DNA of 64,000 nt. Source: Acetobacterium sp. KB-1. GTDB taxonomy: Bacteria > Bacillota > Clostridia > Eubacteriales > Eubacteriaceae. The position numbers and the translations under genes are program-made. The stretch is taken from assembly GCF_003260995.1 (NCBI RefSeq), contig NZ_CP030040.1, positions 1,719,620-1,783,619 on the forward strand, in the 5' to 3' direction. Numbering within the stretch: the first letter of the stretch is position 1; each line of letters starts with the position of its first letter. Below are positions 17,801 to 49,800 of the stretch, one piece after another. The notes beneath the pieces are model-generated. The model saw nothing but the letters and a program-made list of their open reading frames with translations. It was not told the origin of the DNA and made no database searches.

Positions 17801-19552
17801 TTAAACCAATTTTGGCTTTACCGAGTAAGTTGTATGCAATAAGTGATGTGCTTTGTGGCTGTTTGGCTCTTCTAAAAATTCTTCATAAAGACGAATAACA
17901 GAAGGATTCTGATGTGATTTACGGTAGGTTAAAACATTGGCATCTTCGTTATAAAGTGCTTTTGCTCTTTCGGCCCGGATATCTAAATCCATCTTGTCTT
18001 TAGCCGAAACAATTGGTTGACCGCCACCGTTGACGCAACCGCCTGGGCAGGCCATTAATTCGATGAAGTGGGTATCTGCCAGGGCACCGGATTTTAACTG
18101 TTCCATGACTTCTCTGACATTGCTACCGCCATGAGCAACCACAAGATTAACTGCTAAATCTGGCGTTACCTGAACCGTTGCTTTTTTAATTCCATCGACA
18201 CCACGCACGACCTCGTAGTCAATTTCCTGAATGTCTGTTTTGTTTAATACGTCAGCCACAGTTCTAACGGCAGCTTCCATAACTCCGCCGGTGGCGCCAA
18301 AGATTACGGCAGCACCAGTGGATTCACCATAGTAATCGTCAAAGTCTTCATCTGGTAATTTATTAAACAGAATGCGCGCTTCTTTGATCATTCGGGCAAG
18401 TTCACGGGTCGTAATGGAAATATCGACATCGGCATTACCATCGGTACATAATTCTTCTCGTTGTACCTCATATTTTTTAGCGGTACAAGGCATGATTGAA
18501 ACAACCACCATGTCTTTAGGGTCGATGCCGTTCGCCTGAGCATAGTGACTCTTAAGTAAAGCACCGGTAATATTTTGTGGTGATTTACAGCTCGACAGAT
18601 GAGGAATCGCTTCTGGATAGTAGGTTTCGATAAATTTGATCCAACCTGGTGAACAGGAGGTGATCATTGGCAAAACGCCGCCATTGGTAATGCGACCAAT
18701 TAATTCTGTGCCTTCTTCCATGATGGTTACATCAGCACCAAAATCGGTATCGAAAACTTTATCAAAGCCCAGTCTTCGAAGCGCAGCCGTCATTTTACCA
18801 GTTACAGATGTTCCCATCGGGTAACCAAATTCTTCGCCTAAACCAGCTCGAACAGCTGGAGCGGTTTGAACAATCACGGTTTTAGAAGGATCAGCAATCG
18901 CATCCCAAACCCGTTGAATGTCTGATTTTTCTTTTAATGCACCAACTGGACAGTTGATAATACATTGTCCACAGTTGATACAGCCCACATCAGCGAGTGA
19001 TTTGTTAAAGACCGGTTGTACCTGAGAGGTAAAGCCACGGCCAACACTACCCAGTACGGCAACGCTTTGAACGTCTCGACAGACTGATACACAGCGCTTG
19101 CAAAGAATACATTTGGATTCATCTCTGACGACTGATGTTGATAAGTCATCAACGAGTTTACCAGACACTTCGCCTTCAAAAGGAACATCGGAAACGCCTA
19201 AATCCGTTGCCAGTGTCTGTAGTTCACAGTTTTCGCTACGCACACAGGTTGTGCATTCGCGGTTGTGGTTTGAAAGAATCAGTTCCAGATTAACCCGACG
19301 TGCTTCTCGCACTTTTGGCGTGTTTGTTAATACCTCAATACCATTAGCAACAGGGTAAACACAAGCTGCCTGCAGCGCTCTTGCTCCGGCAATCTCAACG
19401 ACACACATTCGACATGCACCGATTTCGTTAACATCTTTCAGATAACAAAGGGTGGGAATGTCAATGTTACATTGTCTTGCCGCTTCCAGAATGGTTGTTC
19501 CTTCTGGAACAGTCATTTCCTGTCCGTTTATTTTAAAAGTAATTTCTTTCAT
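17801..19552 (-). CDS. hydA: [FeFe]-hydrogenase catalytic subunit of the electron-bifurcating hydrogenase
   Basis: The start is ATG at 19552 (MKEITFKINGQ) behind GAGGAGG, giving 583 residues. The frame continues upstream inside hydB but without a start signal. Domains in order: [2Fe-2S] (CRMC near residue 47), His-Cys [4Fe-4S] (HNRECTTCVRSENCELQ), two [4Fe-4S] motifs (CILCKRCVSVC, CINCGQCIINCPVG), then the H-cluster domain. Its three signatures are TSCSPGW near 299, MPCTAKKYE near 352 and MACPGGCVNGGGQP near 500. The first differs from the textbook TSCCPGW. With HydB, HydC and HydD it should oxidise or make H2 using NAD and ferredoxin at once. It is the last gene of hydCEDBA. Confidence 0.95.
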   Translation of the reverse strand: MKEITFKINGQEMTVPEGTTILEAARQCNIDIPTLCYLKDVNEIGACRMCVVEIAGARALQAACVYPVANGIEVLTNTPKVREARRVNLELILSNHNRECTTCVRSENCELQTLATDLGVSDVPFEGEVSGKLVDDLSTSVVRDESKCILCKRCVSVCRDVQSVAVLGSVGRGFTSQVQPVFNKSLADVGCINCGQCIINCPVGALKEKSDIQRVWDAIADPSKTVIVQTAPAVRAGLGEEFGYPMGTSVTGKMTAALRRLGFDKVFDTDFGADVTIMEEGTELIGRITNGGVLPMITSCSPGWIKFIETYYPEAIPHLSSCKSPQNITGALLKSHYAQANGIDPKDMVVVSIMPCTAKKYEVQREELCTDGNADVDISITTRELARMIKEARILFNKLPDEDFDDYYGESTGAAVIFGATGGVMEAAVRTVADVLNKTDIQEIDYEVVRGVDGIKKATVQVTPDLAVNLVVAHGGSNVREVMEQLKSGALADTHFIELMACPGGCVNGGGQPIVSAKDKMDLDIRAERAKALYNEDANVLTYRKSHQNPSVIRLYEEFLEEPNSHKAHHLLHTTYSVKPKLV

Positions 19553-19571
19553 TATTCTGATAACCTCCTCA

Positions 19572-21371
19572 TCAAGCCTTGGAAATGGAGCCAAATGGAC
19601 AGGCTTCAATACAGGCATTACATTTAATACACTTCGATGTATCAATGGTGTATGGTTTTTTCTTTTCGCCAGTGATTGCTTCTGCGGGACATTTTTTAGC
19701 ACAGATTCCGCAGCCTTTACAGGTTAGTGGATCAATGGTGTAGTCTAATAAATGTTTACAGACGCCAGCGGGACATTTTTTATCATTAATATGTGCTTCG
19801 TATTCATCTCTGAAATAGTGAATGGTTGACAGAACGGGGTTAGGAGCAGTTTGTCCCAATCCACAAAGGGCTGAAGCTTTGATGCCTACGGCCAGTTCTT
19901 CAAGTCGTTCGATATCTCCTTTAACGCCTTTACCGTCGCAGATACGCTCCAGAATTTCAAGCATTCTTTTGGTCCCAATACGGCAAGGTGGGCACTTACC
20001 ACAGGATTCGTCCTGGGTAAAGTCAAGGAAGAAACGGGCCACATCAACCATACAGTTGTCTTCATCCATTACGATCAGTCCACCGGAGCCCATCATTGAA
20101 CCGATGGCAATCAGGTTATCATAGTCAATTTTTGTATCTAATAAAGAAGCCGGGATACATCCGCCTGAGGGTCCCCCGGTTTGAGCGGCTTTAAACGCTT
20201 TACCATTAGGAATACCACCACCGATTTCAAACACGATTTCTCGCAGGGTTGTGCCCATTGGGATTTCAAGTAAACCGGTGTTGTTAATTTTTCCACCGAG
20301 TGCGAATACTTTTGTTCCTTTAGATTTTTCGGTTCCTACCGCTGCAAACCATTCGGCACCTTTTAAGATAATAGCAGGAATGTTGGCATAGGTTTCAACG
20401 TTATTTAAAACAGTTGGTTTTCCAAATAAACCTTTGTTGGCTGGGAATGGCGGACGTGGACGCGGTTCACCACGTTTACCTTCGATGGAGTTCATTAATG
20501 CGGTTTCTTCACCACATACGAAAGCGCCGGCGCCTAAACGAATTTCCAGGTCAAAGGAGAAATCGGTATCAAAGATGTTTTCACCTAATAAACCATATTC
20601 TTTAGCCTGGTCAATCGCGATTTGAAGACGGTTTACGGCGATTGGGTACTCAGCTCGGACATAAACATAACCTTTAGCTGCGCCAACTGCAAAACCAGCA
20701 ATTGCCATCGCTTCGATTAAAGCATGAGGATCTCCTTCTAATACGGATCGATCCATGAACGCACCGGGGTCACCCTCATCAGCGTTACAGGCAACGTATT
20801 TGATACCATCTTCTGATACAGCGTCATGGGCAAACTGCCATTTAAGACCAGTTGGGAATCCACCGCCCCCACGACCACGAAGACCGGAAGCTTTTACTTC
20901 ATTAATAACATCAATCGGTGTCATGGTTAACAGGACTTTTTCCAACGCCATGTAACCATCAAAACCAATGTACTCGTCAATATTTTCCGGGTTAATAACA
21001 CCACAGTTTGCTAAAGCGATACGTTTTTGTTTTTTGAAGAATCCCAATTCATTAATTGACAGTGGGTGATGTCCGTCGCCTTTTTCGGTGTAGATCAGGC
21101 GATCGAGTGGTCGACCTTTTACCAGGTGTTCTTCGACTAGTTCTGAAATATCGGTTGCTTCTACTCGACTGTAGAATGTCCCTTCGGGATATACAATAAC
21201 AACGGGTCCCAGTTCACATAAACCAAAACATCCCGTTGCAACAACTTCGACTTCGTCAAGGATATCATGTTTTACTAATTCTTTTTTTATTTCTTTTACT
21301 AATGTCATGGATCCTGAGGATGTACATCCTGTACCACCACAAATCAGTACCTGCGAACGTTTATATGCCAT
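19572..21371 (-). CDS. hydB: Electron-bifurcating hydrogenase subunit B (NuoF-like, NADH/FMN)
   Basis: The 599-residue protein has an N-terminal thioredoxin-like [2Fe-2S] domain (ICGGTGCTSSGS...GCFGLCELGP). It is followed by a NuoF-like core with NADH-binding GLRGRGGGGFPTGLKW, FMN-binding CGEETALMNSIEGKRGEP, and a [4Fe-4S] site ESCGKCPPCRIGTKR. The C-terminus adds a 2[4Fe-4S] ferredoxin domain (CKGCGICAKKCPAEA, CIKCNACIEACPFGS). This architecture is typical of bifurcating hydrogenases, where this subunit holds the FMN at the NAD site. GGAGGAG precedes the ATG. hydA follows after 20 bases. Confidence 0.96.
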   Translation of the reverse strand: MAYKRSQVLICGGTGCTSSGSMTLVKEIKKELVKHDILDEVEVVATGCFGLCELGPVVIVYPEGTFYSRVEATDISELVEEHLVKGRPLDRLIYTEKGDGHHPLSINELGFFKKQKRIALANCGVINPENIDEYIGFDGYMALEKVLLTMTPIDVINEVKASGLRGRGGGGFPTGLKWQFAHDAVSEDGIKYVACNADEGDPGAFMDRSVLEGDPHALIEAMAIAGFAVGAAKGYVYVRAEYPIAVNRLQIAIDQAKEYGLLGENIFDTDFSFDLEIRLGAGAFVCGEETALMNSIEGKRGEPRPRPPFPANKGLFGKPTVLNNVETYANIPAIILKGAEWFAAVGTEKSKGTKVFALGGKINNTGLLEIPMGTTLREIVFEIGGGIPNGKAFKAAQTGGPSGGCIPASLLDTKIDYDNLIAIGSMMGSGGLIVMDEDNCMVDVARFFLDFTQDESCGKCPPCRIGTKRMLEILERICDGKGVKGDIERLEELAVGIKASALCGLGQTAPNPVLSTIHYFRDEYEAHINDKKCPAGVCKHLLDYTIDPLTCKGCGICAKKCPAEAITGEKKKPYTIDTSKCIKCNACIEACPFGSISKA

Positions 21372-21390: not shown

Positions 21391-21789
21391 TTAACCCTTA
21401 ACCGATGGATCGATGATCATACCATCAACCACCGTCATGGTGTATTCGCTGACTACTTTTCCTTGAGCCAGGTGTTCATCAACAACGCGTGCAACCTTTT
21501 CGGCGGTCATATGGACATAGGTAACTTTTTCATTGTTGGCATCATATACTTCTACAATTGGTTCTAATCGACAGGACCCGATACATCCGGTTTGGGCCAC
21601 GGTAACGTCAACCAAACCTTTAGCGTCAACTTCTTCCATCAATTTAACCATAACAGGTCGCGCGCCTGCTGCGATACCACAGGTTGCCATGCCAACTACA
21701 ACGCGATAGCCGTTCTTGCCGTGTCGCAAATTGATTTCGTTTAATTTTTTTTCACGAATCGCTTTTAGTTCTGCTAAGGACTTTGCCAT
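21391..21789 (-). CDS. hydD: Hydrogenase subunit D ([2Fe-2S] thioredoxin-like)
   Basis: The start is ATG at 21789 (MAKSLAELKAI), overlapping the hydE stop as TAATG and preceded by GGAGG, giving 132 residues. The frame extends upstream only as overlap with hydE. The Cys pattern VGMATCGIAAGARPVM and QTGCIGSCRLEPIVEV is that of a thioredoxin-like [2Fe-2S] ferredoxin, as in NuoE C-termini. HydD is the extra subunit known from the four-subunit Acetobacterium hydrogenase, and its exact role is unclear. Confidence 0.92.
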   Translation of the reverse strand: MAKSLAELKAIREKKLNEINLRHGKNGYRVVVGMATCGIAAGARPVMVKLMEEVDAKGLVDVTVAQTGCIGSCRLEPIVEVYDANNEKVTYVHMTAEKVARVVDEHLAQGKVVSEYTMTVVDGMIIDPSVKG

Positions 21790-22346
21790 TATGTTTCCTC
21801 CATAATTTCTTGAATTTCTTTGAGACCCTCCATAACGTGTTCCCTGATCCAATTAAGAATTTCCGGTTCGTTTAAAGATTCTACTTCCAGGGTCTCTTTA
21901 ATTTCTCGTGTATTTAGAATAAATTGTTGATTGTTGTAGTCGTGTTCATAGTAAAGATCTGTTTCTCCAAAAGACATTATCATGGTAAGAATGGTATCCG
22001 CCATATTTCCCAGGGGAGCCCGGTCGATATGATCGCGCCTAAAACTTCCAACCACCTTCGTTCCGACGCCCTCGGTTGAGCTTATCAAAAAAGATCCGCC
22101 GCAGGCTTCCGCCGCAGCTTTAAACAGCGATAAACCCAAGCCTACTTTACGGGTCGTCCGGGACGTTACAAATGGATCGGTGACGCCAGCAAGCTGATTT
22201 TCTGGTATGCCACAGCCGTCATCTTCGATGATAATGGTGAGCTCATTTTCTACCAGGGATTCAATAATCTGCAATTTGACACGTTTTGCCTTTGCTCTAA
22301 TGGAATTTTGAGTAATATCTAAAATATGAAGAGACAGTTCTTTCAT
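21789..22346 (-). CDS. hydE: HydE, GHKL-type ATPase encoded in the hydrogenase operon
   Basis: The 185-residue soluble protein has a histidine-kinase-like ATPase fold: N-box LDITQNSIRAKAKRV, G1 box IIEDDGCGIPENQL, and G2 box VGLGLSLFKAAAEACGG with SSTEGVGTKV. No dimerisation/His-phosphate domain or receiver is present. In Acetobacterium the hyd operon contains such a gene, although the protein is not part of the purified complex as far as I recall. Its function is unknown. It has a poor ribosome site and is probably translationally linked to hydC, 10 bases upstream. Confidence 0.88.
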   Translation of the reverse strand: MKELSLHILDITQNSIRAKAKRVKLQIIESLVENELTIIIEDDGCGIPENQLAGVTDPFVTSRTTRKVGLGLSLFKAAAEACGGSFLISSTEGVGTKVVGSFRRDHIDRAPLGNMADTILTMIMSFGETDLYYEHDYNNQQFILNTREIKETLEVESLNEPEILNWIREHVMEGLKEIQEIMEET

Positions 22347-22355
22347 AACGGCTAA

Positions 22356-22826
22356 CTAATATTTTTCCAGGATACTTGGAATTTCATCGACGGTCAAACG
22401 TCCATAAACATCTTCATTAATCATTAGTACGGGTGCTAAACCACAGGCCCCAACGCAACGTGTTGCATCAACTGACCATTTTCCATCTTCGGTTGTGTCG
22501 CCAACCTGTGTTCCCAGAATGCTGTTAACCTTATCAATAATTGGTTGAGCCCCCCTGACATAACACGCGGTTCCCAAGCAGATCCCGATTTTGAATTTTC
22601 CTTTTGGTGTCAGGGTAAATTGTGAATAAAATGTTGCCACACCGTAGACTTCCGTTAAGGGTATCCCTAACTCATCTGCAATGGTTCCCTGTAGTTCAAG
22701 CGGTAAATAGCCATATTTTTCCTGAGTTTCCTGCAGAATCTGCATTAAACAACCGGGCACTTCGCGGTGCTCGGCGACTATTGCCTTTACTACGTCCAAA
22801 TTTTCAACTGGTATTAATTCAGCCAA
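22356..22826 (-). CDS. hydC: Electron-bifurcating hydrogenase subunit C (NuoE-like)
   Basis: The 156-residue protein starts with TTG, placed eight bases after GGAGG. The NuoE-type [2Fe-2S] motif is GICLGTACYVRGA and CVGACGLAPVLMINEDVYG. The N-terminal helix bundle contains YGYLPLELQGTIADELGIPL. It passes electrons between HydB and the rest of the complex. It is the first gene of hydCEDBA, behind a promoter with a perfect 16-bp palindrome. Confidence 0.95.
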   Translation of the reverse strand: MAELIPVENLDVVKAIVAEHREVPGCLMQILQETQEKYGYLPLELQGTIADELGIPLTEVYGVATFYSQFTLTPKGKFKIGICLGTACYVRGAQPIIDKVNSILGTQVGDTTEDGKWSVDATRCVGACGLAPVLMINEDVYGRLTVDEIPSILEKY

Positions 22827-22893
22827 TTTTCAAACCTCCTAATTAAATCGTGCAAACCTTTACGCATATGATTGCATATTTTCTAACAATGTC

Positions 22894-22921
22894 ATTATAA
22901 CATAGAACGAAATATTTCGTT
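22894..22921 (-). promoter_or_regulatory. hyd operon promoter with a 16-bp palindrome
   Basis: On the minus strand a TATAAT lies at 22894-22899. The perfect palindrome AACGAAATATTTCGTT (22906-22921) covers the spacer and -35 position, while the -35 hexamer itself is poor (TAACGA). This layout suggests a repressor or activator site about 70-85 nt before hydC. It does not match the Rex consensus TTGTGAAWWWWTTCACAA. Confidence 0.55.
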
Positions 22922-23052
22922 ATATTTATAACAGATAAATTTTTTACCCTTTTTGTCTCAAATTTTTATGAAAACCTTTAACTTTGTAGACTTTTTATGC
23001 AAATATTCTACTCATTTATTTTTTTTACAAATAAAGTGTAATAATTTTACAC

Positions 23053-23082
23053 ATAAAAAACAGGTGTTTAAGAAACACCTGT
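23053..23082 (-). terminator. Rho-independent terminator after the group D hydrogenase operon
   Basis: ACAGGTGTTT-AAG-AAACACCTGT forms a 10-bp stem. On the minus strand it is followed by six T. It separates the module ending at 23221 from hydCEDBA. Confidence 0.88.
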
Positions 23083-23098
23083 AAAGTTTACGGTTAGC

Positions 23099-23200
23099 TA
23101 CCGTAGCGACACTTGTTAATCTGCTGTTTGCTGCAGGATCGGACAGGTTTTTCAACCTGTTCGCCCTGATGCAAACGACATGATGTAACACGTGTCGGTA
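23099..23200. repeat. Structured ~100-bp element, copy 1
   Basis: The outer arms are TACCGTAGCGACACTTGTTA and TAACACGTGTCGGTA. Inner arms are CTGTTTGCTGC/GATGCAAACGAC and GACAGG/CCTGTT. It has the same orientation as the copy at 52703 and opposite orientation to 38297. No reading frame is present. It is a palindromic dispersed element, MITE-like or encoding a structured RNA. Confidence 0.8.
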
Positions 23201-23220
23201 CTATTTATTACTTGTTCAAT

Positions 23221-23949
23221 TTAACCTAAATAATCAATCAGGGTCTGGCGCCGCATATCCGGAAGGTTAAGAAAATACTCCCGCTCGGCAATGTCTTCAA
23301 GCTGATGGGCGTCAGAGCCATGAATAAACTGATAGGTTTTAAAAAAACGAAAATCCTTTAAGACTTGTTCAAAGCTCTCTTTTTTTGATACTTCACAGGT
23401 TTTAATATCCAGTTCCGGAGGGATAAAACCAAGTGATGCGATAATACTGTAAGATTTTCGGTCGATATGAGCGGGAACCAGAACCCCACCCAGTTCGGTG
23501 ACAATTTGCCACAACTGATCAACCCCAATGTCGGTGGCTGAAATCAGCAGCTTGTCCACTTCACCAATGACCTGGTCATTTTCGTCCATAATGATCTGCG
23601 GACCAAATAATTCTTTTTCGTTGTTTATATCCGGGAGGTGTCGATAAATGATCGCATCGAGTGCCATCGCCGCTTCCAAAGTTGGTAGATAGGCCAAAAT
23701 ATGGGCTTCTTCTTTGGTCGTTACTTCAATCCCCGGTAGGATACACAGGCCACTTTCGGTTTCTTTGGCCAGTTCTTTTGCCACGGCGATAATTGCGGGT
23801 AAATTTTTGGCTGAATTGTGATCGGTAATTGCAATAAAATCCAGTTCTTTAATGAGGGCCATATTCACGATATTATTGGGGGTCATCTCCTCCTCACCAC
23901 AGGGAGATAAGATTGAATGGATGTGCAGGTCTATGGCTACCTTTTCCAT
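23221..23949 (-). CDS. PHP-domain protein of the group D hydrogenase module
   Basis: The 242-residue protein has PHP metal motifs DLHIHSILSPCGEEEM, ITDHNSAKNLPAI, PGIEVTTKEEAHILAYL, VPAHIDRKSYSI and HGSDAHQLEDIAEREYF. The branch resembles the PHP proteins with a TrpH-like N-terminus. The substrate is unknown. It starts directly after the DRTGG gene stop, and its operon includes Fe-S and ATPase signalling proteins. Inference: a phosphoesterase that acts on a nucleotide or sugar phosphate as the output of that module. Confidence 0.85.
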   Translation of the reverse strand: MEKVAIDLHIHSILSPCGEEEMTPNNIVNMALIKELDFIAITDHNSAKNLPAIIAVAKELAKETESGLCILPGIEVTTKEEAHILAYLPTLEAAMALDAIIYRHLPDINNEKELFGPQIIMDENDQVIGEVDKLLISATDIGVDQLWQIVTELGGVLVPAHIDRKSYSIIASLGFIPPELDIKTCEVSKKESFEQVLKDFRFFKTYQFIHGSDAHQLEDIAEREYFLNLPDMRRQTLIDYLG

Positions 23950-24282
23950 TTAGACGCCGGCGTTTCCTAAAATCTTACAGACTTCATAGGCCGTAAGACC
24001 AGTGATCAGCACGGGGATATCTTCAATAATCGCCCGCTCCAGGGTACTTTCTTCCACTTCTGCACCTTCTGGAATAATCACACAGGTCATTTCCAGCAGG
24101 GTTGCCACGGCAATGATATTAACATGGGTTTGAATGGTTACCCAGGCACAGCCATTGCCAGCATTGGCCATCACCCAACTGAGTAAATCGCCGACATAAC
24201 CGCTTTTAATAACCCCTTCAATGCCCACCTGGGGATTGAGACACTTGAATTCCTTGTTTTTTAACAACTCACTTACCTTCAT
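23950..24282 (-). CDS. DRTGG-domain protein
   Basis: The 110-residue soluble protein fits the DRTGG family: SGYVGDLLSWVMANAGNGCA, TIQTHVNIIAVATLLEMTCV and IPVLITGLTAYEVCKIL. DRTGG domains occur beside CBS domains and in phosphotransacetylase-like proteins and are thought to bind a nucleotide or similar ligand. A second DRTGG protein lies at the other end of the operon (26167). An AAGGAG site precedes the ATG. Confidence 0.82.
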   Translation of the reverse strand: MKVSELLKNKEFKCLNPQVGIEGVIKSGYVGDLLSWVMANAGNGCAWVTIQTHVNIIAVATLLEMTCVIIPEGAEVEESTLERAIIEDIPVLITGLTAYEVCKILGNAGV

Positions 24283-24391
24283 TCATTTTCTCCTTTGTTT
24301 TTTTATCATTAATCGTTTTTGTCTGCTAATACAGGCGCTCACGGATGACCAAGGGTCTGACCCTCGCCCGGACGAATTGTTAAGTGGTTTT

Positions 24392-25735
24392 TTACTCTTT
24401 TTTAATTAGCGGTTTATCGGTGGGATGTTCCACCTGCCGTAATTCATTTGTCAGAACCGAAAGATCCCTGACCCGGTCTTTTAAGACAAAAACGCAGTCA
24501 ATTTCATTGGCCTTTCCGGTAACGATATCTTCGGCCAGAGCCCGACAGCCCGGGGAACCGCAGGAACCGCAATCCAGCCCGGGCAGCTTGGCTTCGAGAA
24601 TTTCGATCTGCTTCATTTTTTCGATGGCTTTATTGATATCCTGGTCCAGGGGTTCGGGACTTCTGGGTAGTATCCGTTCTTTAATGTGCATCATCCCGGA
24701 GTTATAAACATTTTTTACGTAGTCATCGGACATGTGTATTATTGAGGTCTGCTTCATCTTATTGGCCCGGTCCTGAATGTACATTTTGGCGACATAATTA
24801 TTTTCCACGGTCAGGCAACCACCAACACAACCGCCGATGCAGGCCAACCCTTCAAAAAACTCGATCGTGTCGAGTTTACCGCACTCTATTTCTTCAAGGA
24901 CACTAATCACATTTTGAATGCCATCAACATGAAGCACGTTTTTGTTTTTAAGGTAATCGCTTTCACCACCGGATAATGCCCAGGAGCATGATTCCGGGGT
25001 GGTATTATGAATACCTTCCTGAATCGGACAGTTACCAATGTGGCTTAAAATATCGCTGTAAATATCTTTAATGGCAATCGCACCATCAATCAGATCGTAT
25101 TTATCATATTCACTGGAGGCCGGATTATTGACCATCGTGGCCTTTGCCGCACAGGGGGTGATAAAAAATACGCCGACATCACTATTTTTATATTTCCCTT
25201 CTTCTCTGATCCGTTTTCTGACCAGTCGGGCGGTCATTGCCATCGGCGATTTCAATCGGCAGATATTGTCTGTAAGCTCCGGAAAACGCACCTGAATCAG
25301 CTTGACGACCGCCGGACAGGCTGAAGAAATAAGCGGTCTTGGGTAGCGTTTGGCGTGGTACTCATACTTGAGGGCCTGGCCAACCACTTCTGCACCATAG
25401 GCAACCTCCACCACCTCATCAAAACCCAGGGCTTTAATCGCCGAGAGAATTTGGGTGATCGAATATTTGGGTTTAAACTGACCGATGATGGCCGGCGCCA
25501 CCAAAGCGACTGTATAACTATAATTATCTTTTTTTGACAACGGATCTGTTTTTGCCAGTTTGGCATGATGGGGACAGATCCGAATACACTCACCACAATC
25601 AATGCATTTTGACTCATTGATAATCGCCTTGCCGCCCCGAACTCGGATGGCACCAGTCGGACAGCTTCTGAGGCAGGTCGTGCAGCCCAGACATTTTTCA
25701 TCATCAAGGTATACAGAATGAAGTAATTTTTCCAT
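24392..25735 (-). CDS. Group D [FeFe]-hydrogenase homologue, putative sensory
   Basis: The 447-residue protein starts with two [4Fe-4S] motifs (CLGCTTCLRSCPTGAI, CIDCGECIRICPHHAK) and an H-cluster domain of about 75-375. Its signatures are altered: SSACPAVVKL instead of TSCCPxW, ITPCAAKAT instead of MPCxxKxxE, and GLACIGGCVGGC instead of MACxxGCxxGGGxP. All four H-cluster ligand Cys appear present, but the proton-relay Cys is Ala. The C-terminal tail has an Fe-S-type Cys cluster, LDCGSCGSPGCRALAEDI, near 387. These are traits of the group D, putatively sensing, hydrogenases. An AGGAAGAAGG site precedes the start. Confidence 0.85.
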   Translation of the reverse strand: MEKLLHSVYLDDEKCLGCTTCLRSCPTGAIRVRGGKAIINESKCIDCGECIRICPHHAKLAKTDPLSKKDNYSYTVALVAPAIIGQFKPKYSITQILSAIKALGFDEVVEVAYGAEVVGQALKYEYHAKRYPRPLISSACPAVVKLIQVRFPELTDNICRLKSPMAMTARLVRKRIREEGKYKNSDVGVFFITPCAAKATMVNNPASSEYDKYDLIDGAIAIKDIYSDILSHIGNCPIQEGIHNTTPESCSWALSGGESDYLKNKNVLHVDGIQNVISVLEEIECGKLDTIEFFEGLACIGGCVGGCLTVENNYVAKMYIQDRANKMKQTSIIHMSDDYVKNVYNSGMMHIKERILPRSPEPLDQDINKAIEKMKQIEILEAKLPGLDCGSCGSPGCRALAEDIVTGKANEIDCVFVLKDRVRDLSVLTNELRQVEHPTDKPLIKKE

Positions 25736-25753
25736 ATGTGACCTTCTTCCTGT

Positions 25754-26170
25754 TTAGACTAAAAATTTCATGACAATTTTTGTACCTTCTCCAATTTTTG
25801 AAGAAATGGCAAAATTGTCGGCGTTGTTTTTCATATTGGGTAAACCCATTCCGGCACCAAAGCCCATTTGCCGGACTTCTTCCCCGGCCGTTGACCAACC
25901 TGCAGTCATCGCCAGATCAATGTTGGCAATACCCGGCCCGGTATCTTCAATGGTCAGCACCAGTTCTGCTTCCCCCACTTCCAAAATAATTTTTCCTCCG
26001 GATGAATGAATGGCCAAATTCATTTCACCTTCATAACCGGCAATCGATACCTTCCTGATGACCTTATTGGGAACACCCAATTGCTGCAGGGTCCGTTTGA
26101 TCTTTCGTGACGCTTCCCCGGCAGTATCAAAATCCCCCCGACTGACGTCAAAGACGAGTTCATAACTCAT
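25754..26170 (-). CDS. RsbW-like ATP-binding regulatory protein (HATPase)
   Basis: The 138-residue protein has an anti-sigma/serine-kinase type GHKL fold: VSIAGYEGEMNLAIHSSGG as N-box, LTIEDTGPGIANIDLAM as G1, and GFGAGMGLPNMKNNADNF as G2 with SSKIGEGTKIVMKF. Known relatives phosphorylate antagonists or bind sigma factors. The gene overlaps the DRTGG gene upstream (ATGA) and precedes the group D hydrogenase. Inference: it reads out the state of the hydrogenase-like sensor. Confidence 0.87.
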   Translation of the reverse strand: MSYELVFDVSRGDFDTAGEASRKIKRTLQQLGVPNKVIRKVSIAGYEGEMNLAIHSSGGKIILEVGEAELVLTIEDTGPGIANIDLAMTAGWSTAGEEVRQMGFGAGMGLPNMKNNADNFAISSKIGEGTKIVMKFLV

Positions 26171-26517
26171 CGGAGGTGCGCTCCCTTTAGGCCGTTTTTA
26201 TAGAGAATCCCACAACTTTCAAAGAGGATATACTTGGTCGACATTACTAAAAGATTCCGTTCTTTTGCGATCTCAATCATTTCCTGGCTGGGCATTTTGT
26301 TTCTGACAAAAATGATACTGTTCATATTGGCCATGTCAGCCGTGTTTAGCACCTGTTTGTTGACAAGACCGGTGAGTAAAATAGCATCTTCTTTGGCAAA
26401 GCACAGCACATCACTCATGAGATCACAGCCAAATCCGGACTGGACTTCTTCATCCAGATGGCTCTCACCAGCTAAAACAACCGCTTCAAGAAGGTCTTTT
26501 ACTAGGCTTAATTTCAT
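26167..26517 (-). CDS. DRTGG-domain protein, first gene of the sensory hydrogenase module
   Basis: The 116-residue protein shows the DRTGG-type pattern SGFGCDLMSDVLCFAKEDAI, LTGLVNKQVLNTADMANMNS and KERNLLVMSTKYILFESCG. The ATG at 26517 lies eight bases after AAGGAG; a TTG one codon earlier is possible. It overlaps the ATPase gene by four bases (ATGA). Its ligand is unknown. It is a paralogue in architecture of the protein at 23950, so the operon encodes two such domains. Confidence 0.8.
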   Translation of the reverse strand: MKLSLVKDLLEAVVLAGESHLDEEVQSGFGCDLMSDVLCFAKEDAILLTGLVNKQVLNTADMANMNSIIFVRNKMPSQEMIEIAKERNLLVMSTKYILFESCGILYKNGLKGAHLR

Positions 26518-26548
26518 CAAAGGTTCTCCTTATTTCGTTATCATTCTT

Positions 26549-26579
26549 ATTGTAAAGGATTTCTCTTGCATTTTGCAAG
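26549..26579 (-). promoter_or_regulatory. Promoter of the group D hydrogenase operon with overlapping palindrome
   Basis: On the minus strand TTGCAA is followed after 18 nt by TACAAT. The -35 lies inside the palindrome CTTGCA-TTT-TGCAAG (26565-26579), a possible operator. Confidence 0.5.
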
Positions 26580-26634
26580 GTCTTTAGGGTTTTTTATTTC
26601 TATTTTTTTGTTGGGTCATACCCACTTAGTGATC

Positions 26635-28947
26635 TTATAGATTGATTTTATGATAGGCCGCTCCCAATGATTTTAATAGCTTTTCTTCATCGTCGTCACA
26701 GGTAAAAAGAATGATCTGACGTTTACTGCTCAGTTCACACAGCAGTTTAAGGGCTTCGGTTTTTCGCTGTTTGTCATACCGGACAAAGGGTTCATCAAGA
26801 ATAAAAGGCATCTCGTGACTGATTCGTTCCCCAATTCCATAGCGGAAGGCAAAATGAACCTGATCCATGGTTCCGGCGCTTAACTGCTCGGCATCCTTAA
26901 AATCGCCACCTTTGGGATCGACCACCTTGAGTTTCATGGCTTCATCTATTTTTACCCCTTTATAATGCTGGGTGATGGTTTCTAAAACCGCACCGATATT
27001 TTTATTAAGCTCCGGCGCAGACTCTAAATGACAGTCTTGCTGGATCGTTTCAAGTACTTCCAGGGCGGCGTTACAGGCCTGAATTTCAGTATCAAAGGTT
27101 TGAATTTGGGCGTCCAGCGATTTAATGGTCTCCTGGATTTCCACCGGCAGACCGATGCCATCGGTAAGCGCATTGTTCTCACCTTCCAACCGGGCAATTT
27201 CTTTCCCCAGACTTAAGAGCTCTTCGGATTTCGGAGAAGCTTTGTGCCAAACCGCTTGTCCATCCTCTGTTTTTCCACCATTGACGGTCTCAAGAAGATT
27301 CTCCAGCAGCCGCAAATTGCCGTTAAAACGGATTTTGAGTTCTTCTAACTGCTGCGCTTTTTCGCAGCGTTCGGAATATTCGGCAATGTCTTTTACCTCA
27401 TACTGGGCCAGCTTTTTGTCGAGCTCCCGCATAATTCCGCGGCGTTGCTCAAAGAGCACTTCATAACCGGCCTGGTGCCGCGAGTGCTGAACAATGATTA
27501 ATTCCCCTTCGTTTTGTAGTTGTTCTAACTCTTTCTGGTTACGAACAACTTTTTTATAAAAACTGTCAAAACTGGGGCCGTCTTTTAATTGATACTTTGC
27601 CAGGATTTCATCCTGAATGGGAATTAATTGTTTTTCTCTTAGAATCTGCCGTTTTTTAAGGGTTGCCGAAACCCCAAAGCTCAGTCCCACTACACCGACA
27701 ATTGCCAGGGTCACGCCCAGGGTTAAAGACAGGTTTTCGATTCCCTGGTTACTTCCCATCAACCCCATATTAGCAAGCCCCACCAGTCCCATTCCCACCA
27801 GGGTTACCAGGGTAGCAATGATGTTGATGATAATGTTTGATTTTTTATCGACGGCTTCTACTTCACCTTGCTCTTTTTTATAAAGCTCATAATCTTCGGT
27901 AATTCCTTCTAAGGTATGACCCGCCAGAGCACTGCGCTTTGCGGCTTCTTTCTGCCTAATCGCTTTGAGATGTTCAGAGGCGTCGGCCATTTCTTTTTCG
28001 ATGTAGTCCATCTGATCGCCAAGCCGTTCGCCCTGATTTTTAATGGCTTTTAAGCCCTCCAGAATCTTGTAACTGTAGTCTTCAAAAACCTGGTCTTCTT
28101 TGATGATTTTTGACAGGCGATTATTTTCTTTTTCAAGTTTGTTGATCTTTTCATAGCTTTGCAGCAGCTCTTTTTTTCGTTTAACCACCGATTCCTGGCT
28201 CAAATACTCATTTTCCGCTTCAATGCGTTTCATGATCTTTTGATTCCGGGTAATCTTTTCCTGATTTTCGGCCACCTTGGCATAGGCGGCTTCGGCTTCT
28301 TTTAATAATTCCTTTAGTTCATCCCGTTCCCTAATCGCCGTACCAATTCTTGACTTACTCTGACCGGAACGACCAATCTGATTCTTTTTTTCTTCCAGTC
28401 GTCGGACGATCCCTTTAAAATTAATTTCGATGCCGCTGGAATTCTGCATTTCGATATAGGAATCCCGGATTTCATCCTGATGGTTCCCGGATTCGTAGTC
28501 ATGGAGGTTCTGACGCATATTGACAGTATTATTGTAAACAACGGTGGTCATCCCGGTGTTTCCCAGAGGCAGATGCTGGCGGATGACGCCATCGTATTTA
28601 AATTGATCATTAATTATTTTTCCGGTACGATTATCGTAAATGAATAAGGAGTCTTTGGCTCTTAGAAAATTCCGCTCCAGGCGGATTTCGCGGTCATCCA
28701 TCTCATAAACCAGCGCACCGCTGTAATCAAATTGATTCCAGGGCATATATTTTTCATATTCTTCGCTGTAGGTTTTCTTTTTACGGTAGGGTTTATAAAA
28801 CCCAAAAAACATCCCCTGAATAAAGGTCTGAACGGTTGTTTTCCCGGCTTCGTTTTTCCCATAAATCAGATTGAGTCCCGGTTTGAGCGTAAGTGTCTGG
28901 TCTTTAAATTTTCCAAAGGCCTTAATTGACAAGGTTTTTATTTGCAT
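26635..28947 (-). CDS. YhaN-like SbcC/RecN-type AAA ATPase
   Basis: The 770-residue protein is ABC-ATPase-like with Walker A in LIYGKNEAGKTTVQTFIQGM at about 28-47. A long coiled coil (about 180-600) is interrupted near 370-440 by two hydrophobic segments (IIINIIATLVTLVGMGLVGL, LTLGVTLAIVGVVGLSFGV). The C-terminal signature is LSAGTMDQVHFAFRYGIGER with Walker B MPFILDEPFVRYD. The hydrophobic hairpin in the coiled coil is typical of YhaN, unlike SbcC. It pairs with the nuclease gene upstream with a one-base TAATG overlap. Likely role: DNA double-strand end processing, perhaps membrane-associated. Confidence 0.87.
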   Translation of the reverse strand: MQIKTLSIKAFGKFKDQTLTLKPGLNLIYGKNEAGKTTVQTFIQGMFFGFYKPYRKKKTYSEEYEKYMPWNQFDYSGALVYEMDDREIRLERNFLRAKDSLFIYDNRTGKIINDQFKYDGVIRQHLPLGNTGMTTVVYNNTVNMRQNLHDYESGNHQDEIRDSYIEMQNSSGIEINFKGIVRRLEEKKNQIGRSGQSKSRIGTAIRERDELKELLKEAEAAYAKVAENQEKITRNQKIMKRIEAENEYLSQESVVKRKKELLQSYEKINKLEKENNRLSKIIKEDQVFEDYSYKILEGLKAIKNQGERLGDQMDYIEKEMADASEHLKAIRQKEAAKRSALAGHTLEGITEDYELYKKEQGEVEAVDKKSNIIINIIATLVTLVGMGLVGLANMGLMGSNQGIENLSLTLGVTLAIVGVVGLSFGVSATLKKRQILREKQLIPIQDEILAKYQLKDGPSFDSFYKKVVRNQKELEQLQNEGELIIVQHSRHQAGYEVLFEQRRGIMRELDKKLAQYEVKDIAEYSERCEKAQQLEELKIRFNGNLRLLENLLETVNGGKTEDGQAVWHKASPKSEELLSLGKEIARLEGENNALTDGIGLPVEIQETIKSLDAQIQTFDTEIQACNAALEVLETIQQDCHLESAPELNKNIGAVLETITQHYKGVKIDEAMKLKVVDPKGGDFKDAEQLSAGTMDQVHFAFRYGIGERISHEMPFILDEPFVRYDKQRKTEALKLLCELSSKRQIILFTCDDDEEKLLKSLGAAYHKINL

Positions 28948-43838: not shown

Positions 43839-46800
43839 TTATAATCCCATTAACACGTCAACCTCATGATTTATTTTATCATTGACCAGGTTGATAACAT
43901 TTCTGGTAGAGACGATTCCATCTACTGAGATGATTTTAACGCCTTTATTGACCGCATCTGGATTTTTTACGTTTATGTGATAGTTTGTTTCCTGGTAGCG
44001 ATAGCAAATTTGATATTCTTTCAATGTTCTGGGAATACAAGGGTCCATAACAATGGTCTCACCATTTTTCTGGAAACCCAGAATGTATTCAAGACCCGCC
44101 CGATACATCCAACCGGCCGCACCGGTATACCAGGTCCAACCGCCTCGACCGGTATGTGGATAAGTGGAATAGACATCGGCTGCCACCACGTAGGGCTCTA
44201 CCTTATAACGGGTATAGTCCCGCATGTTGGTGGTGTGATTAATCGGGTTAATCAGTTCAAACAGCTCCCAGGCTTTATCGCCATCGCCCAGTTTGGCAAA
44301 GGCAATGATGGCCCAGGCCGCTGCATGAGTGTATTGTCCGCCATTTTCACGAACTCCCGGAATATAGCCCTTGATGTATCCGGGTTCCAGTTCAGACTGA
44401 TCAAAAGGCGGTGTCAGCAGCTTAATCAGGCCGTCTTCACGGCTAACCAGGTAATCATCCAGTGACTTCATCGCAGTAAGGGACCGTCCGGCTTCTCCGG
44501 CTCCGGAAATAACCGACCAGCTTTGAGCAATGGAGTCGATTTTACACTCACTGTTCCCAGCCGACCCCAATACATCGCCATTGTCGAAATAAGCCCGGCG
44601 ATACCAGCTCCCATCCCAGGCTGTTTTTTCAATGGCCGCCATCATTTTCTCTTTAACACTTTCATATTTTTGGGCCAGTTCCAGGTCGCCCTTTTCTTTA
44701 CAAATAGGCATAAACAGGTCCAGATTGGCAATCAGGAACCAGCCTAACCAGACACTTTCACCTTGGCCCTTATTACCAACGGTGTTCATTCCGTCATTCC
44801 AGTCCCCGGAGCCCATCAGCGGCAGTCCATGTTCTCCAAATTTCAGGGAAATTTCAAGGGCCCGCAGACAATGTTCATACAAAGAAGCTGTGGTTTTAAT
44901 TTTCCAGGGAACACCGCATTTTTCATCTTCAAATTCACCTAGTTCCGGCTCTTCGATAAAATTCACATCTTCTTCTAAAATTTGGTGATCGCCGGTGATG
45001 CGGATGTACTCGGCGGTGACATAAGGCAGCCATAATCGATCATCCGAAAAATGGGTCCGGGTTCCCAAACCCAGGGGCTCATGCCACCAATGCTGAACAT
45101 CGCCCTGAACGTACTGATGACTGGCATGGAGCAGGATTTGAGCCCGGGTAATTTCCGGCCATAAATTAGCAATGGATAAGGCATCCTGGAGTTGATCTCT
45201 AAACCCGAATGCGCCACCAGCCTGATAAAACCCTGATCTTCCCCACAATCGGCAGGAAATAACCTGATACTGAAGCCATCCATCCAACATCAGATTGATC
45301 GAAGCTATTGGTGTTTCCACCTTTATTATTCCTAACTTGCTTTTCCAGAAACCGATGACTTCGTTTAGCGCCTCCTGAACATTTCGCAACTCACGATACT
45401 TCTGGCTCAGTACCTCTACCTCACTTTGATTGTTTCCGATTCCCATCAGGAAGGCAACATCCTTCCGCTCATTAGGTCCCAGGGTAATTTTCACCTGAAT
45501 GGCCCCGCAGGGATCAAAGCCGGCACCTAAAACCCCGTCAAGACTTATATTGGCCAGACCTTCTGGTCGGGACATATTCCCATTACCCAAAAAGGCTTTA
45601 CGATCACTGGTCACCGATCGTTTAGCGATTGATGCATCAAGCAACAGTACTTCGCCCGGAAAGCTTTCATTATAGGGATTTCTTATTAATAGGGCGCCGG
45701 AATTATCCTGCTCGGTATTGATGTGCAGGGCTGTCGCCTGATCACTGACTCCCAGTACGGGCCTGATATAGTAAGTCAGGGTTATATGTCGTTCCTGATT
45801 CGATTCATTTTTTAAATTAATCAGACTTATTTTTACCGCATCTGTTGTTGGAACAAACTGAATCATCCGTTGTTTGATACCATGACTGGCGTGTTCAACA
45901 TTAGTATAGCCAAAGCCATGCTTAATGGTATAATCTTCCGCTTCCCGAATCGGTAGTGGGGTGATGGTCCAGATTTCTCCAGTGTCGCCATCGCCCAGAT
46001 AAACCACTTCTCCCGGGGGATCGGAGACAACATCATTTGACCAGGGGGTGAGTTTGTTTTCCCGGCTGTTTTGATACCAGGCATAACCGGAGCCAGATTC
46101 AGAAACCATAAAGCCAAAGCTTTGGTTAGCGATCACATTCACCCACGGTGCCGGGGTATTTTCACCATTTTTCAGATGGATGATATACTCACTGCCGTCC
46201 TTTTTAAAGCCGCCAATGCCATTATTATATAAACGTTCCGGTTCATCAGTTTGTGACACCGAGTAATTAATCGGCTTGCTGCTTGCCACGATTTTTTCAG
46301 GAATCAGTTTAGCCGCGACGGATTGATAAACGCATTCAATTTGTTCCCGGAGCGTTCCCATACCGCCTTTTAAAATAACCCGGGCAACAGCATAGAGCAG
46401 AGGTATGTCGGTCGCTGCTATTTTATTTTTTTCCAGAATAAAGAGATCCTCACTAGTTTTTAGCATTTCGTGGGTTTGTTTGGATAAGACCATGTCAGAA
46501 ATCAGGGCATATAAGGGCAGTGAGTAAGAGTATTCCTCTTCACTTAAGATCACCAGATCCACATTTAAGCCCATCAGACGCCAGTATTCATGCGCCTTTA
46601 AAACTTCAACCAATAACTTGACCTGGTCGATGTTAGATAAATCGATCACTACAATGGGATTGTCTCCGGAAATGCCATATTTCCACAAGGCCGACTGACC
46701 CTGGGTATTTTTAAGGATTATTTCCTGATTCATCATCTTTGTCGGGCTTAAAAAAACAAGATGAGAGATCATATCCTGATAAAGTTCGGACTCGTCAGTA

Positions 46801-49800
46801 TCTAAATTGAGATATCGGGTTTCCACCTGACTCCTTGTTAAGGCCAATTTGAAAGCACCTTCGATCGCACTGGGAGTATGATATTTATCAATCAGGTTAA
46901 GAATCGATTCTTTGCTTTCACAAAAGGCCGTGACAAACGAAAATGAGGCGGTTTTTCCGGCCTCGATGGTCACCTTGATCCGGGTACTCATGACCGGATC
47001 GAGCACCGGTCCACTGGTGCTCGACAGAGGTCTGTCCTGATTGATGACCACCGGATTTTGGGAGTTGTTGCCCCGGCCGATAAACTGCATCCGATCAGTC
47101 TCGTACTGGATCTCGCCCTCTAGATTACTGTTGGTCACAATGGCATTGGCCAGCCACACGCTTTTATCACTGTCTGATCGGGGCCGTCGGGTGGCAATGA
47201 GGCATTTTCTATGATGCTCTATTTCTGTTTTAATAAAGAGATTACCAAAAGCCGGGTGGGCAATATCTCCGGCCTGGGTTGCCATAACCAGTTCAAAATA
47301 GCTGGTCAATTCCAGGGTACAGGCTTTTTTGCCGTTATTTTTCAGGGTGATTCGTCTGATTTCGACGTTATCACCAGAGGCTACAACCACCTCAGTTTTC
47401 GTCTCAATATCACCATCAGTACGCTTGAAGGTGGCTTTATCGGCAGTAAAAACGACCTCATATTGATCAGGCTTTTGATTAAGCGGGCCATAGGCCGCCG
47501 ACCAGACGGCTTTACTCTCGACATTTTTTAAATAGAAAAACGTGCCATATTGATCCAGGGTGCTGTCTTCGCGCCATCTTGTTACCGCTGCCATTTTGCT
47601 TTTACTATAACCAGTTCCCCGCTCGGTAATCATCACCGAATAATTGCCGTTAGAAAGAATATGGGCTTTGGGTAGAATGGTATTTGGTTTTGTAAAGCGT
47701 CGCACGGCACTTATCTCTTTGGCGATCTTGCCCTTGTAGGGCACCAGTTTTTCCTTTGTTCCCTTGGTAAAGATCAGATCAGAAGAGACTTTTTCCTGAA
47801 GCAGCAATCTGGCGGCATGGATTTCCGGGTCATTATGAAAACGGGTTTGCATGATATTGTGATTGACGCAATTGTTGAGTGCCATTAAACTCATTCCCTG
47901 ATGGTGAGCCATAAAACTTTTTACTAATGCCCGCTTTGTTTCAAAACCCAGTCGTTCCGGGGTATAATCAGCAGCTTCATAAAAACCATAGGGTCCTTCC
48001 AGACCATCGGCCTTTAGCCTTCTAATATTTTTAATTGCTGCTTCCGGGTTAACCATCAATGCCAGGAAAGTGGCATAGGGCGCAGTCACAGCATCATCAA
48101 TTAAGCCCCGTTTAAGCCCCAACCAGGGAACTCCGATGGCCTTGTATTTATAATCGTGGTGTTTATCCATCGCATGGTAGCCGGATTCGGATGTGCCCCA
48201 AGGCATTTCCCGCTGATCGCCGTATTTCATCTGACTTTTTATTACAAAAGAATAGGTTTCGTCCAGCAAGGTGTTCTGATAGCTTTTCATAATCAAAAGG
48301 GGCATTAAATATTCAAACATGGTGCCTGTCCAGGAAATCAAGCCTTTGTAATGGTCCACATTCGTTAGTGCCCGTCCCAGTTTAAACCAGTGTGAGGCCG
48401 GAATCTTGCCTTTGGCAATACAGATATAGCTGGTTTGACGGGCCTCTGAGGCCAACAGGTCATAAAATGAATTGGTCAGCTTATTGTCTTCCAGATTAAA
48501 CCCGATACTGAACAATTCCTTTTTCTTGTCATACAGTGGTAGAAATTCCATCGCATCGACGAGAGCATCGATCCGTCTGAGTAAGTTGGTATACTGATCC
48601 ACAAAGTCCTGACTTGCTGTCGCAGCAGCACTGAGGGCGATCTTTGTTTCTTCCAGCCAGGCTAGTTCCTCACGGTAATCGTCCTGGTCCCATTTTTTAA
48701 CAGCTTCTAGCAAGCGGTTGACCATGGCAACGGTTTGCTGATGATGCTTTGGCAAATCAATCAGGTCGGCATTATCGGTTAAGCGGATTTTGAAATTTTT
48801 AAGATCCTCAAACACCGCATCACTTGCTGCTTCTTTTTTGGCCGCAGCCATATCCATCAAACGCTCCGGCATTTTATTAAGCAACCCGATGCCCGGCAGG
48901 AAGGTTGTCATTTCGGTGTTGAACAGGGTGATCATCGCAACGATTTTTGTTTTCCAGACACCTTCATCCAGTTCTGCCATGGCGTCGGCCTTGATCAGGG
49001 TCTCTAGCGTATGATGCCATTTTTTTAAATCCACCGCTGTCTCTACGTTGTCTCTCATAGGGATTTTCCCATCGACAGCATAATCGGTTTTTCCAACGCA
49101 ATGAAGGGTATCCCGGATTCCACTTAAAAACCGTGAATCAATCAGAGGACTTTTAAGGTAGTCCAAAAGCCCCTGTTTCAGGGTAACCAGGTAACAAAGA
49201 AAATTTCCGCTATCGACCGTTGAAATATAGGCCGGACGCAGGGGTTTTAGGGTTAGGGTATCATACCAGTTAAGTAAATGACCCTGCCATTTTTCCAGCC
49301 CTTCAATGGTATCAACGGTTTTATCAATCAGCGCCATCATTTGCCCGGTTCCGATATAGCCAAAGTCTCTGGCTGTCAGTGGTGCCAGCAGACCCAGACC
49401 AATGTTGGTCGGTGATGTTCGCTGGGCAATACCTCTAGGTGGGTCAGCCTGATAATTGTCAGGAATCAGATAATGACTTTTAGCATTCGAGAAATCCTCA
49501 AAATAGCGCCAGGTTTTGCGGGTGATCCGGCCCAGTTCAGAAGACTCAGGCTCCGACAGTGTAAGCACCTTTTGCTGGTGATCCCTACTGATAAACCAGG
49601 CTATAACAGGACTGACAACCCAAATGGCAAAGAAAAACAGACTAAGCAGCAGTGCTTCCGGTTTAAAAAAGAGGGCCAGAATGACAGGTATCGGTGCCTG
49701 TAGCAGCGCCGCCTTCATGGTAAAAACATAACTGATCAGTGAATTTTTCTGAAATTTTTCGGTATCATCAGCCGTTACCCATTCCAGCAGGTTTTTTCGG

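Follow-up and report, generated by a model that had tools for sequence, protein, structure and literature searches.

What does a group D-type [FeFe]-hydrogenase homologue do beside the genes of a bifurcating hydrogenase, and which proteins could pass on its signal? We addressed this question at a locus of Acetobacterium sp. KB-1, in a window of 64,000 nucleotides (the whole stretch of DNA that was analyzed; contig NZ_CP030040.1, positions 1,719,620 to 1,783,619), where the homologue, here called HydS, lies in a five-gene module followed by hydCEDBA. A first-pass annotation, made from the sequence alone, had suggested that the module could be an H2 or redox sensor controlling the hydrogenase nearby. 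With slightly better than even confidence we favor a wider reading, namely that the module is a portable redox-signaling switch serving enzymes which use flavin-based electron bifurcation to couple NAD(H) with ferredoxin; in many hosts it reads as competent for H2. The five genes are as follows.

26167..26520, minus strand: D1, small DRTGG-domain protein (open reading frame list and Pfam; likely start ATG at 26517)
25754..26170, minus strand: W, SpoIIAB/RsbW-like ATPase (HATPase_c, with intact N, G1 and G2 boxes)
24392..25735, minus strand: HydS, group D-type [FeFe]-hydrogenase homologue (Fe_hyd_lg_C)
23950..24282, minus strand: D2, second DRTGG-fold protein (same family as D1; AlphaFold model)
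23221..23949, minus strand: PHP-domain phosphoesterase (PF02811 above cut-off)

Open reading frames, families and folds agreed with the five parts named in the first-pass annotation (DRTGG, RsbW-like ATPase, group D homologue, DRTGG, PHP). Its description of a compact operon holds in that the genes form an ordered unit on one strand (D1 and W overlap by 4 nucleotides (nt), W and HydS lie 18 nt apart, and 0 nt separate D2 from PHP), but it is weakened by a gap of 109 nt between HydS and D2 and by a hairpin before hydC. Comparison across genomes showed that the set is a true unit, clearly contrary to the first refuting condition named in the first-pass annotation, a lack of conservation as a unit. 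Among the 80 best of 221 HydS relatives in named genomes, D1 (or its fused form), W, HydS, D2 and PHP were all present in this order at 66 loci, including those of Halanaerobacter and an Aminicenantes metagenome-assembled genome (MAG). The other 14 loci met a contig edge, had no D2 or PHP beside HydS, carried HydS in a split frame (L049, from an Armatimonadetes MAG) or held a lone HydS (L039). Over all loci, the median gaps within the module were -4 to 24 nt and the median distance from PHP to hydC was 101 nt. Co-occurrence was assessed in the 398 genomes of a phylum sample that were >=90% complete, with presence set at E <= 1e-80 for HydS and E <= 1e-30 for the PHP family. HydS was present in 163 genomes and the PHP family in 157; 152 genomes had both, 11 HydS only, 5 PHP only and 230 neither (Fisher p 6e-89, descent ignored), so the two were found together in 152 genomes and apart in 16. 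Eight genomes (G175, G202, G226, G295, G337, G412, G428, and G444) kept both genes on different contigs, a count that leaves out G298, in which PHP is possibly one gene cut by contig ends. Two of the five PHP-only cases (G237 and G346) are contig ends.

A survey of group D neighborhoods, as the first-pass annotation had recommended, was carried out on 111 HydS loci, comprising 36 of 41 genomes without HydG and 75 loci from genomes with HydG, mostly one per genus. Neighbors were assigned within the fetched stretch of up to 20 kb. W, alone or fused, adjoined HydS in 107 loci, and D1 was seen in 87 (fused to W in 8), D2 in 89, PHP in 91, and E, a second HATPase protein, in 85; D1, W, D2, and PHP were all in place in 71 loci, contig ends included. 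The enzyme nearby varied. HydA was the commonest (60 loci), followed by the alpha chain of an FdhF-type formate dehydrogenase (17), with both in 1; further loci held HydB without HydA being seen (8), Rnf only (3) or NfnAB without HydA (3), and those with no enzyme partner had Rex only (3) or none (16). Counted irrespective of these classes, Rex was near the module in 22 loci, Rnf in 15, and HydF or HydG in 8; Pfam confirmed Rex (L030, L175) and RseC (L237). Eight of the 17 FdhF-type enzymes lay 3' of the module on the same strand, five were divergent neighbors and four were distant. HydC/HydB-like diaphorase genes precede these formate dehydrogenase genes, and an in-frame TGA stood at the expected selenocysteine in all six that were read. 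The three formate dehydrogenase parts tested each had TIGR01591 as best match, two above the cut-off and one 0.35 bits below it. FdhF-type loci came mostly from genomes without HydG (15/17), HydA-type loci from genomes with it (53/60), and the formate dehydrogenase label required at least 5 changes on the 108-row HydS tree, 3 of them forced by well-supported branches.

Several of these neighborhoods had further features. A gene of the Rex type, the NADH/NAD+-sensing repressor family, was situated directly 5' of the module in L195, L196, L197, L200, L202, L206, L212, L214, L227, and L257. In L194, L217, L219, L228, and L232, HydG, often with HydF, stood directly or one gene 5' of the module, which ties HydS to H-cluster maturation there. 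In an Aminicenantes locus (L077:2654-4382), two genes judged by eye to be HdrB/HdrA-like precede the module, and a partner of the heterodisulfide reductase type may thus also exist.

Is HydS itself equipped to sense H2? It has two N-terminal [4Fe-4S] motifs, an H-domain, and a C-terminal iron-sulfur domain with CX2CX4CX16C, and by residue and motif criteria it is classified as a group D (M2e)-type [FeFe]-hydrogenase homologue; a Pfam scan of the window HydS found no PAS match. In an alignment of 85 HydS rows, the H-cluster ligand cysteines (140, 195, 299, 303) were conserved in 84-85 rows, one being gapped, and the C-terminal motif cysteines in all 85; the 108 HydS rows of the census all had the four cubane cysteines. 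The position of CpI C299 was occupied by Ala (58), Ser (21), Thr (3), Asn (1) or Asp (1) and never by Cys, and that of M353 by Thr (45) or Ser (40), with Ala in two of the 108 census rows. The earlier statement that the ligands are kept and the proton-relay cysteine is lost was therefore borne out, as in TamHydS of Thermoanaerobacter mathranii (PMC8163306). Since the window genome also encodes HydE, HydF, and HydG, its HydS is predicted to be capable of holding an H-cluster, again in line with the first reading. CpI K358, which we take to contact a cyanide of the diiron site, corresponds to Lys in 74/74 rows from genomes with HydG and in 27 of 28 rows from HydG-lacking genomes with other Fe-hydrogenases, the remaining row having Arg.

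This equipment is not universal. HydG above the cut-off was absent in 41 of the 163 genomes with HydS, one of which (G303) has HydG split over contig ends, and a new search scoring every candidate for these 41 and five positive controls left the outcome unchanged. HydF was present in four of the 41 and HydE in three; in 37 of the 163, none of HydE, HydF, and HydG was found over the cut-off. HydS was the sole PF02906 protein in six of these 37 genomes. Four of them (G086, G217, G265, and G287, one family) have Gln at K358 and keep the four cubane cysteines, and two (G158 and G200) keep Lys; G200 is sister to G272 on the HydS tree, and its operon resembles that of G272 minus HydA. Conversely, in G169, G197, and G353 no HydS passed the threshold, and D1, CBS-W, D2, PHP, and E followed in order with a W-D2 gap of <=40 nt; HydG was above the cut-off in all three. 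Because of the formate dehydrogenase, Rnf, and NfnAB neighbors, these three modules without HydS, and the six genomes with HydS alone and no HydE, HydF or HydG, the proposal of an H2 sensor specific to the adjacent bifurcating hydrogenase is too narrow and, as stated, was not supported.

Two separate observations concern maturation. HydA-type proteins with H-cluster loop motifs and no HydE, HydF or HydG above curated cut-offs were found at L271-L273 and L276-L284 (genomes G145, G276, G178, G297, G071, G180, G230, G311, G119, G078, and G082, two of them single-contig); these are either immature or dead enzymes, products of a maturation route that we do not know, or cases of missed genes. An identification of the HydS-only family f42 as heliobacteria received no support, as PF00223 was present in 0/14 genomes, though this is not decisive. 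A hydA homologue without hydEFG has been reported in Heliophilum (PMC9147875).

The remaining parts of the module resemble components of signaling systems. D1 matched Pfam DRTGG with E 7.8e-5 and 22.9 bits, below the gathering score of 25.2, and D2 had no Pfam or NCBIfam match at E 0.001. The two are nevertheless one family, as profile searches from either reach the same 316 open reading frames (110 loci plus the window). The AlphaFold model of D2 (predicted local distance difference test (pLDDT) 96.9) aligned with the DRTGG structure 2ioj at Z 15.1 and a root-mean-square deviation (rmsd) of 2.1 over 109 residues. A natural D1-W fusion (L030) scored 31.2 bits for DRTGG, above the cut-off, and was modeled with pLDDT 89 and a predicted template modeling score (pTM) of 0.71; its D1 part aligned with 2ioj (Z 17.9, rmsd 1.7, 112 residues) and its W part with SpoIIAB 1til (Z 18.4, rmsd 1.9, 132 residues). 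MurE and HPr kinase were among the lower-ranked structure matches. W carries the GHKL fold with E-x-x-x-N, G1, and G2 boxes; beyond HATPase_c, its single NCBIfam match was SpoIIAB, below the cut-off, and E47, E49, N51, and the box glycines were invariant in 73/73 aligned rows. Fusions of D1 to W occurred at 9 named loci, behind a Rex-like gene in the three inspected, and Pfam found CBS pairs fused to W in 5/5 long W proteins tested, two of which came from loci with HydS. A Ser in DLMSDVL of D1 (72/72 rows) and one in DLLS of D2 (78/78) were invariant, and both models (the L030 fusion and D2) place it at a predicted helix start, the kind of position that is phosphorylated in STAS partners. The His/Asp/Glu set of the PHP metal site was complete in 73-75 of 75 rows, the remainder being gaps, and some enzymes of the PHP type, for example CpsB/YwqE, are protein-tyrosine phosphatases.

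Because W keeps its catalytic set, the Ser is invariant, and the PHP metal site is retained, we propose a kinase/phosphatase switch acting on the DRTGG proteins. HydS would be the sensor, a role that we find plausible, taking electrons from ferredoxin or, in hosts whose HydE, HydF, and HydG supply the diiron site, from H2; specificity for H2 outside hosts with these maturases and HydA is doubtful. Electrons could settle on the [4Fe-4S] chain and the H-cluster, with the C-terminal cluster reporting their state. W, as the SpoIIAB-like ATPase/kinase, would be the switch, with the CBS domains of some lineages as a possible adenylate input; D1 and D2 would be the likely proteins that it binds or phosphorylates, by way of the helix-start Ser, and PHP would reset the system as a phosphatase. 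What the switch acts on is most likely the diaphorase-linked enzyme nearby (HydABC, HydBC-FdhF, Rnf or NfnAB), through either its activity or its expression, with Rex, present in 22/111 loci, perhaps involved. A more general formulation, to which we give somewhat less than even credence, is that D-W-(HydS)-D-PHP-E governs flavin-based bifurcation irrespective of the partner's product (H2, formate, NADPH or an ion gradient) and that HydS of some lineages has lost the diiron site and become a pure [4Fe-4S] sensor of the ferredoxin state.

Several results weigh against the portable switch. Genomes without HydG are over-represented in the census because 36 of 41 were taken, compared with about one per genus of those with HydG, and many assemblies are fragmented. 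The formate dehydrogenase set of L160-L163 is about seven genes off and on the opposite strand (overlapping stretches L171-L174), in G166, which accounts for one of three NfnAB cases, HydA lies further along the same contig, and the association of FdhF with the absence of HydG was not separable from descent, with 2 usable pairs on the HydS tree. PHP was absent from the 11 HydS-only genomes, one of which (G138) is at a contig end. By sequence, the nearest solved relatives of PHP are EndoQ, an exoribonuclease, and other phosphoesterases, which act on nucleic acids or are uncharacterized, and not protein phosphatases, and a Pfam scan found no DNA-binding domain among the module's own proteins. 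Furthermore, 31 of the 37 genomes without HydE, HydF, and HydG hold other Fe-hydrogenase homologues, often with canonical motifs, so the absence of known maturases may not prove that the H-cluster is absent; of 14 such loci inspected, 12 encoded HydA-labeled proteins with a TSC[SC]P motif, including those of the single-contig G145 and G276.

One rival is a dedicated H2 sensor, in which a full H-cluster in HydS binds H2 and control through W, D1, D2, and PHP extends to hydCEDBA only. The invariant ligands, the Lys at K358 in all 74 rows from genomes with HydG, the maturases of the window genome, the HydF or HydG genes at 8/111 loci, and the frequency of HydA as neighbor (60/111) are all in its favor, as is the reaction of TamHydS with H2 in vitro (PMC8163306, PMC13104023). 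We nonetheless regard it as unlikely, given that the neighboring enzyme varies across many lineages, that HydS is retained without HydE, HydF, and HydG and without any other Fe-hydrogenase, and that the module is retained without HydS. A second rival, in whose favor the CBS pairs on W count, is a nucleotide-messenger circuit, with DRTGG and CBS binding an adenine nucleotide that PHP destroys, W reading the energy charge, and HydS adding a redox input. The DRTGG fold is shared with the CBS-DRTGG region of regulated pyrophosphatase, which has nucleotide ligands, and the solved PHP relatives act on nucleic acids; the conserved set, however, contains no recognized nucleotide-making enzyme and the invariant Ser of D1 and D2 is more easily taken as a phospho-site, which makes such a circuit quite improbable to us. 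That HydS, W, the D proteins, and PHP merely assemble, activate or protect a HydBC-type complex, with no signaling, would agree with HydB/HydC-type genes being the commonest neighbors and with the place of E, which separates hydC from hydD in the window and at many other loci. We consider this very unlikely, since at L243, L245, L248, and L237 the module has Rnf or Nfn as its neighbor and the stretch contains no HydB, and since its parts resemble known signaling proteins.

How the module is connected to the hydrogenase genes of the window can be judged from the 394-nt gap between PHP and hydC and the genes beyond it.

23060..23082, minus strand: terminator-like hairpin of 10 bp with a T-run, between PHP and hydC (consensus match only)
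22356..22826, minus strand: hydC, NuoE-like 2Fe-2S protein (family match)
21789..22346, minus strand: E, second HATPase protein (family match)
21391..21852, minus strand: hydD, 2Fe-2S thioredoxin-like protein (true start probably 3' of the listed TTG)
19572..21371, minus strand: hydB, NuoF-like diaphorase (family match)
17801..19702, minus strand: hydA, group A [FeFe]-hydrogenase (NF040763, 877.7 bits, cut-off 765; true start probably 3' of the listed GTG)

As the hairpin and its T-run sit in this gap, the module may be transcribed separately from hydCEDBA. Between positions 17500 and 26800, terminator-type sites were no commoner than in shuffles (9 versus 8.7); promoter and terminator counts were at shuffle level. 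Palindromes of the Rex type with <=3 mismatches gave 11 matches in the window versus 6.1 expected, with 0 within 22300-26700, and an Rfam scan of the window found no match inside or close to the module. E, which we take to be the hydE of the acetogen operon, was counted with the hyd genes in the first-pass annotation; however, it accompanies the module in many genomes and directly adjoins PHP on the 3' side in loci without hydC at that place. The window genome is assembled as one contig of 3.99 Mb, and its HydS is 93% identical to those of A. dehalogenans and A. wieringae. Elsewhere in the window, a pan motif (RF01749, 40407-40502, plus strand) exceeded the Rfam gathering score, and a very long open reading frame of 2930 amino acids occupies 43839-52631 on the minus strand.

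Part of this arrangement is already in print. TamHydS lies 5' of a bifurcating hydrogenase and is flanked by a histidine kinase-like ATPase and an 'AraC' regulator (PMC8163306), and a histidine kinase gene with a group D-like gene precedes the operon in all Thermoanaerobacter strains of PMC3608648. The accessory clusters of TamHydS were studied in PMC13104023, and a Rex site was predicted 5' of the 'PHP domain protein' gene Tsac_1856 (PMC5886521), which is possibly the module gene. Single passages of PMC9431212 and PMC4355364 contained nothing on group D neighbors. Literature searches for hydrogenase with DRTGG or PHP, whose coverage left out most subscription papers, returned no account of the set. 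The first-pass remark that no circuit with all these parts had been described thus agrees with our searches for the set as a whole, but HydS with a histidine kinase-like ATPase and a bifurcating hydrogenase was published before. The full part list, the partner swaps, and the HydS-less forms were not found in these searches, and the range of neighbors is new to us. The module names candidate transducers for the transmission of the group D signal, which PMC8163306 poses as a question. The natural fusions (D1-W, CBS-W) and deletions (modules without HydS, HydS without maturases) serve as tests, and the module may be a common element in how anaerobes, including acetogens, regulate electron flow through H2, formate, Rnf, and Nfn.

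TamHydS is among the closest known systems. As in that group D (M2e) protein, HydS keeps the H-cluster ligands, has lost CpI C299, carries a hydroxyl residue at M353, and has a C-terminal CX2CX4CX16C, and it occupies the same kind of site, 5' of a bifurcating hydrogenase beside a histidine kinase-like ATPase. In contrast to the account of TamHydS, the genes flanking HydS here encode W and DRTGG proteins, PHP and E belong to the set, and non-hydrogenase neighbors occur around it; we would guess that the published 'AraC' gene is a DRTGG gene. The group C HydS of Thermotoga maritima also carries an additional cluster at the C-terminus and is a putative sensory Fe-hydrogenase, but it contains a PAS domain, whereas the window HydS has none and the signaling parts are separate genes. 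The CBS-DRTGG regulatory region of pyrophosphatase (3l2b, 3l31) shares the DRTGG fold and, in some lineages, the CBS domains; in the module, DRTGG forms a protein by itself, and the domain to which CBS is joined is a kinase-like ATPase. Finally, the module recalls the partner switches SpoIIAA-SpoIIAB-SpoIIE and RsbV-RsbW-RsbU, in that W shares the fold and the catalytic residues of SpoIIAB, a small partner protein carries an invariant Ser, and the set includes a possible phosphatase gene. The Pfam scan of ten window genes found no STAS, sigma-factor or PP2C domain; DRTGG and PHP would replace them here.

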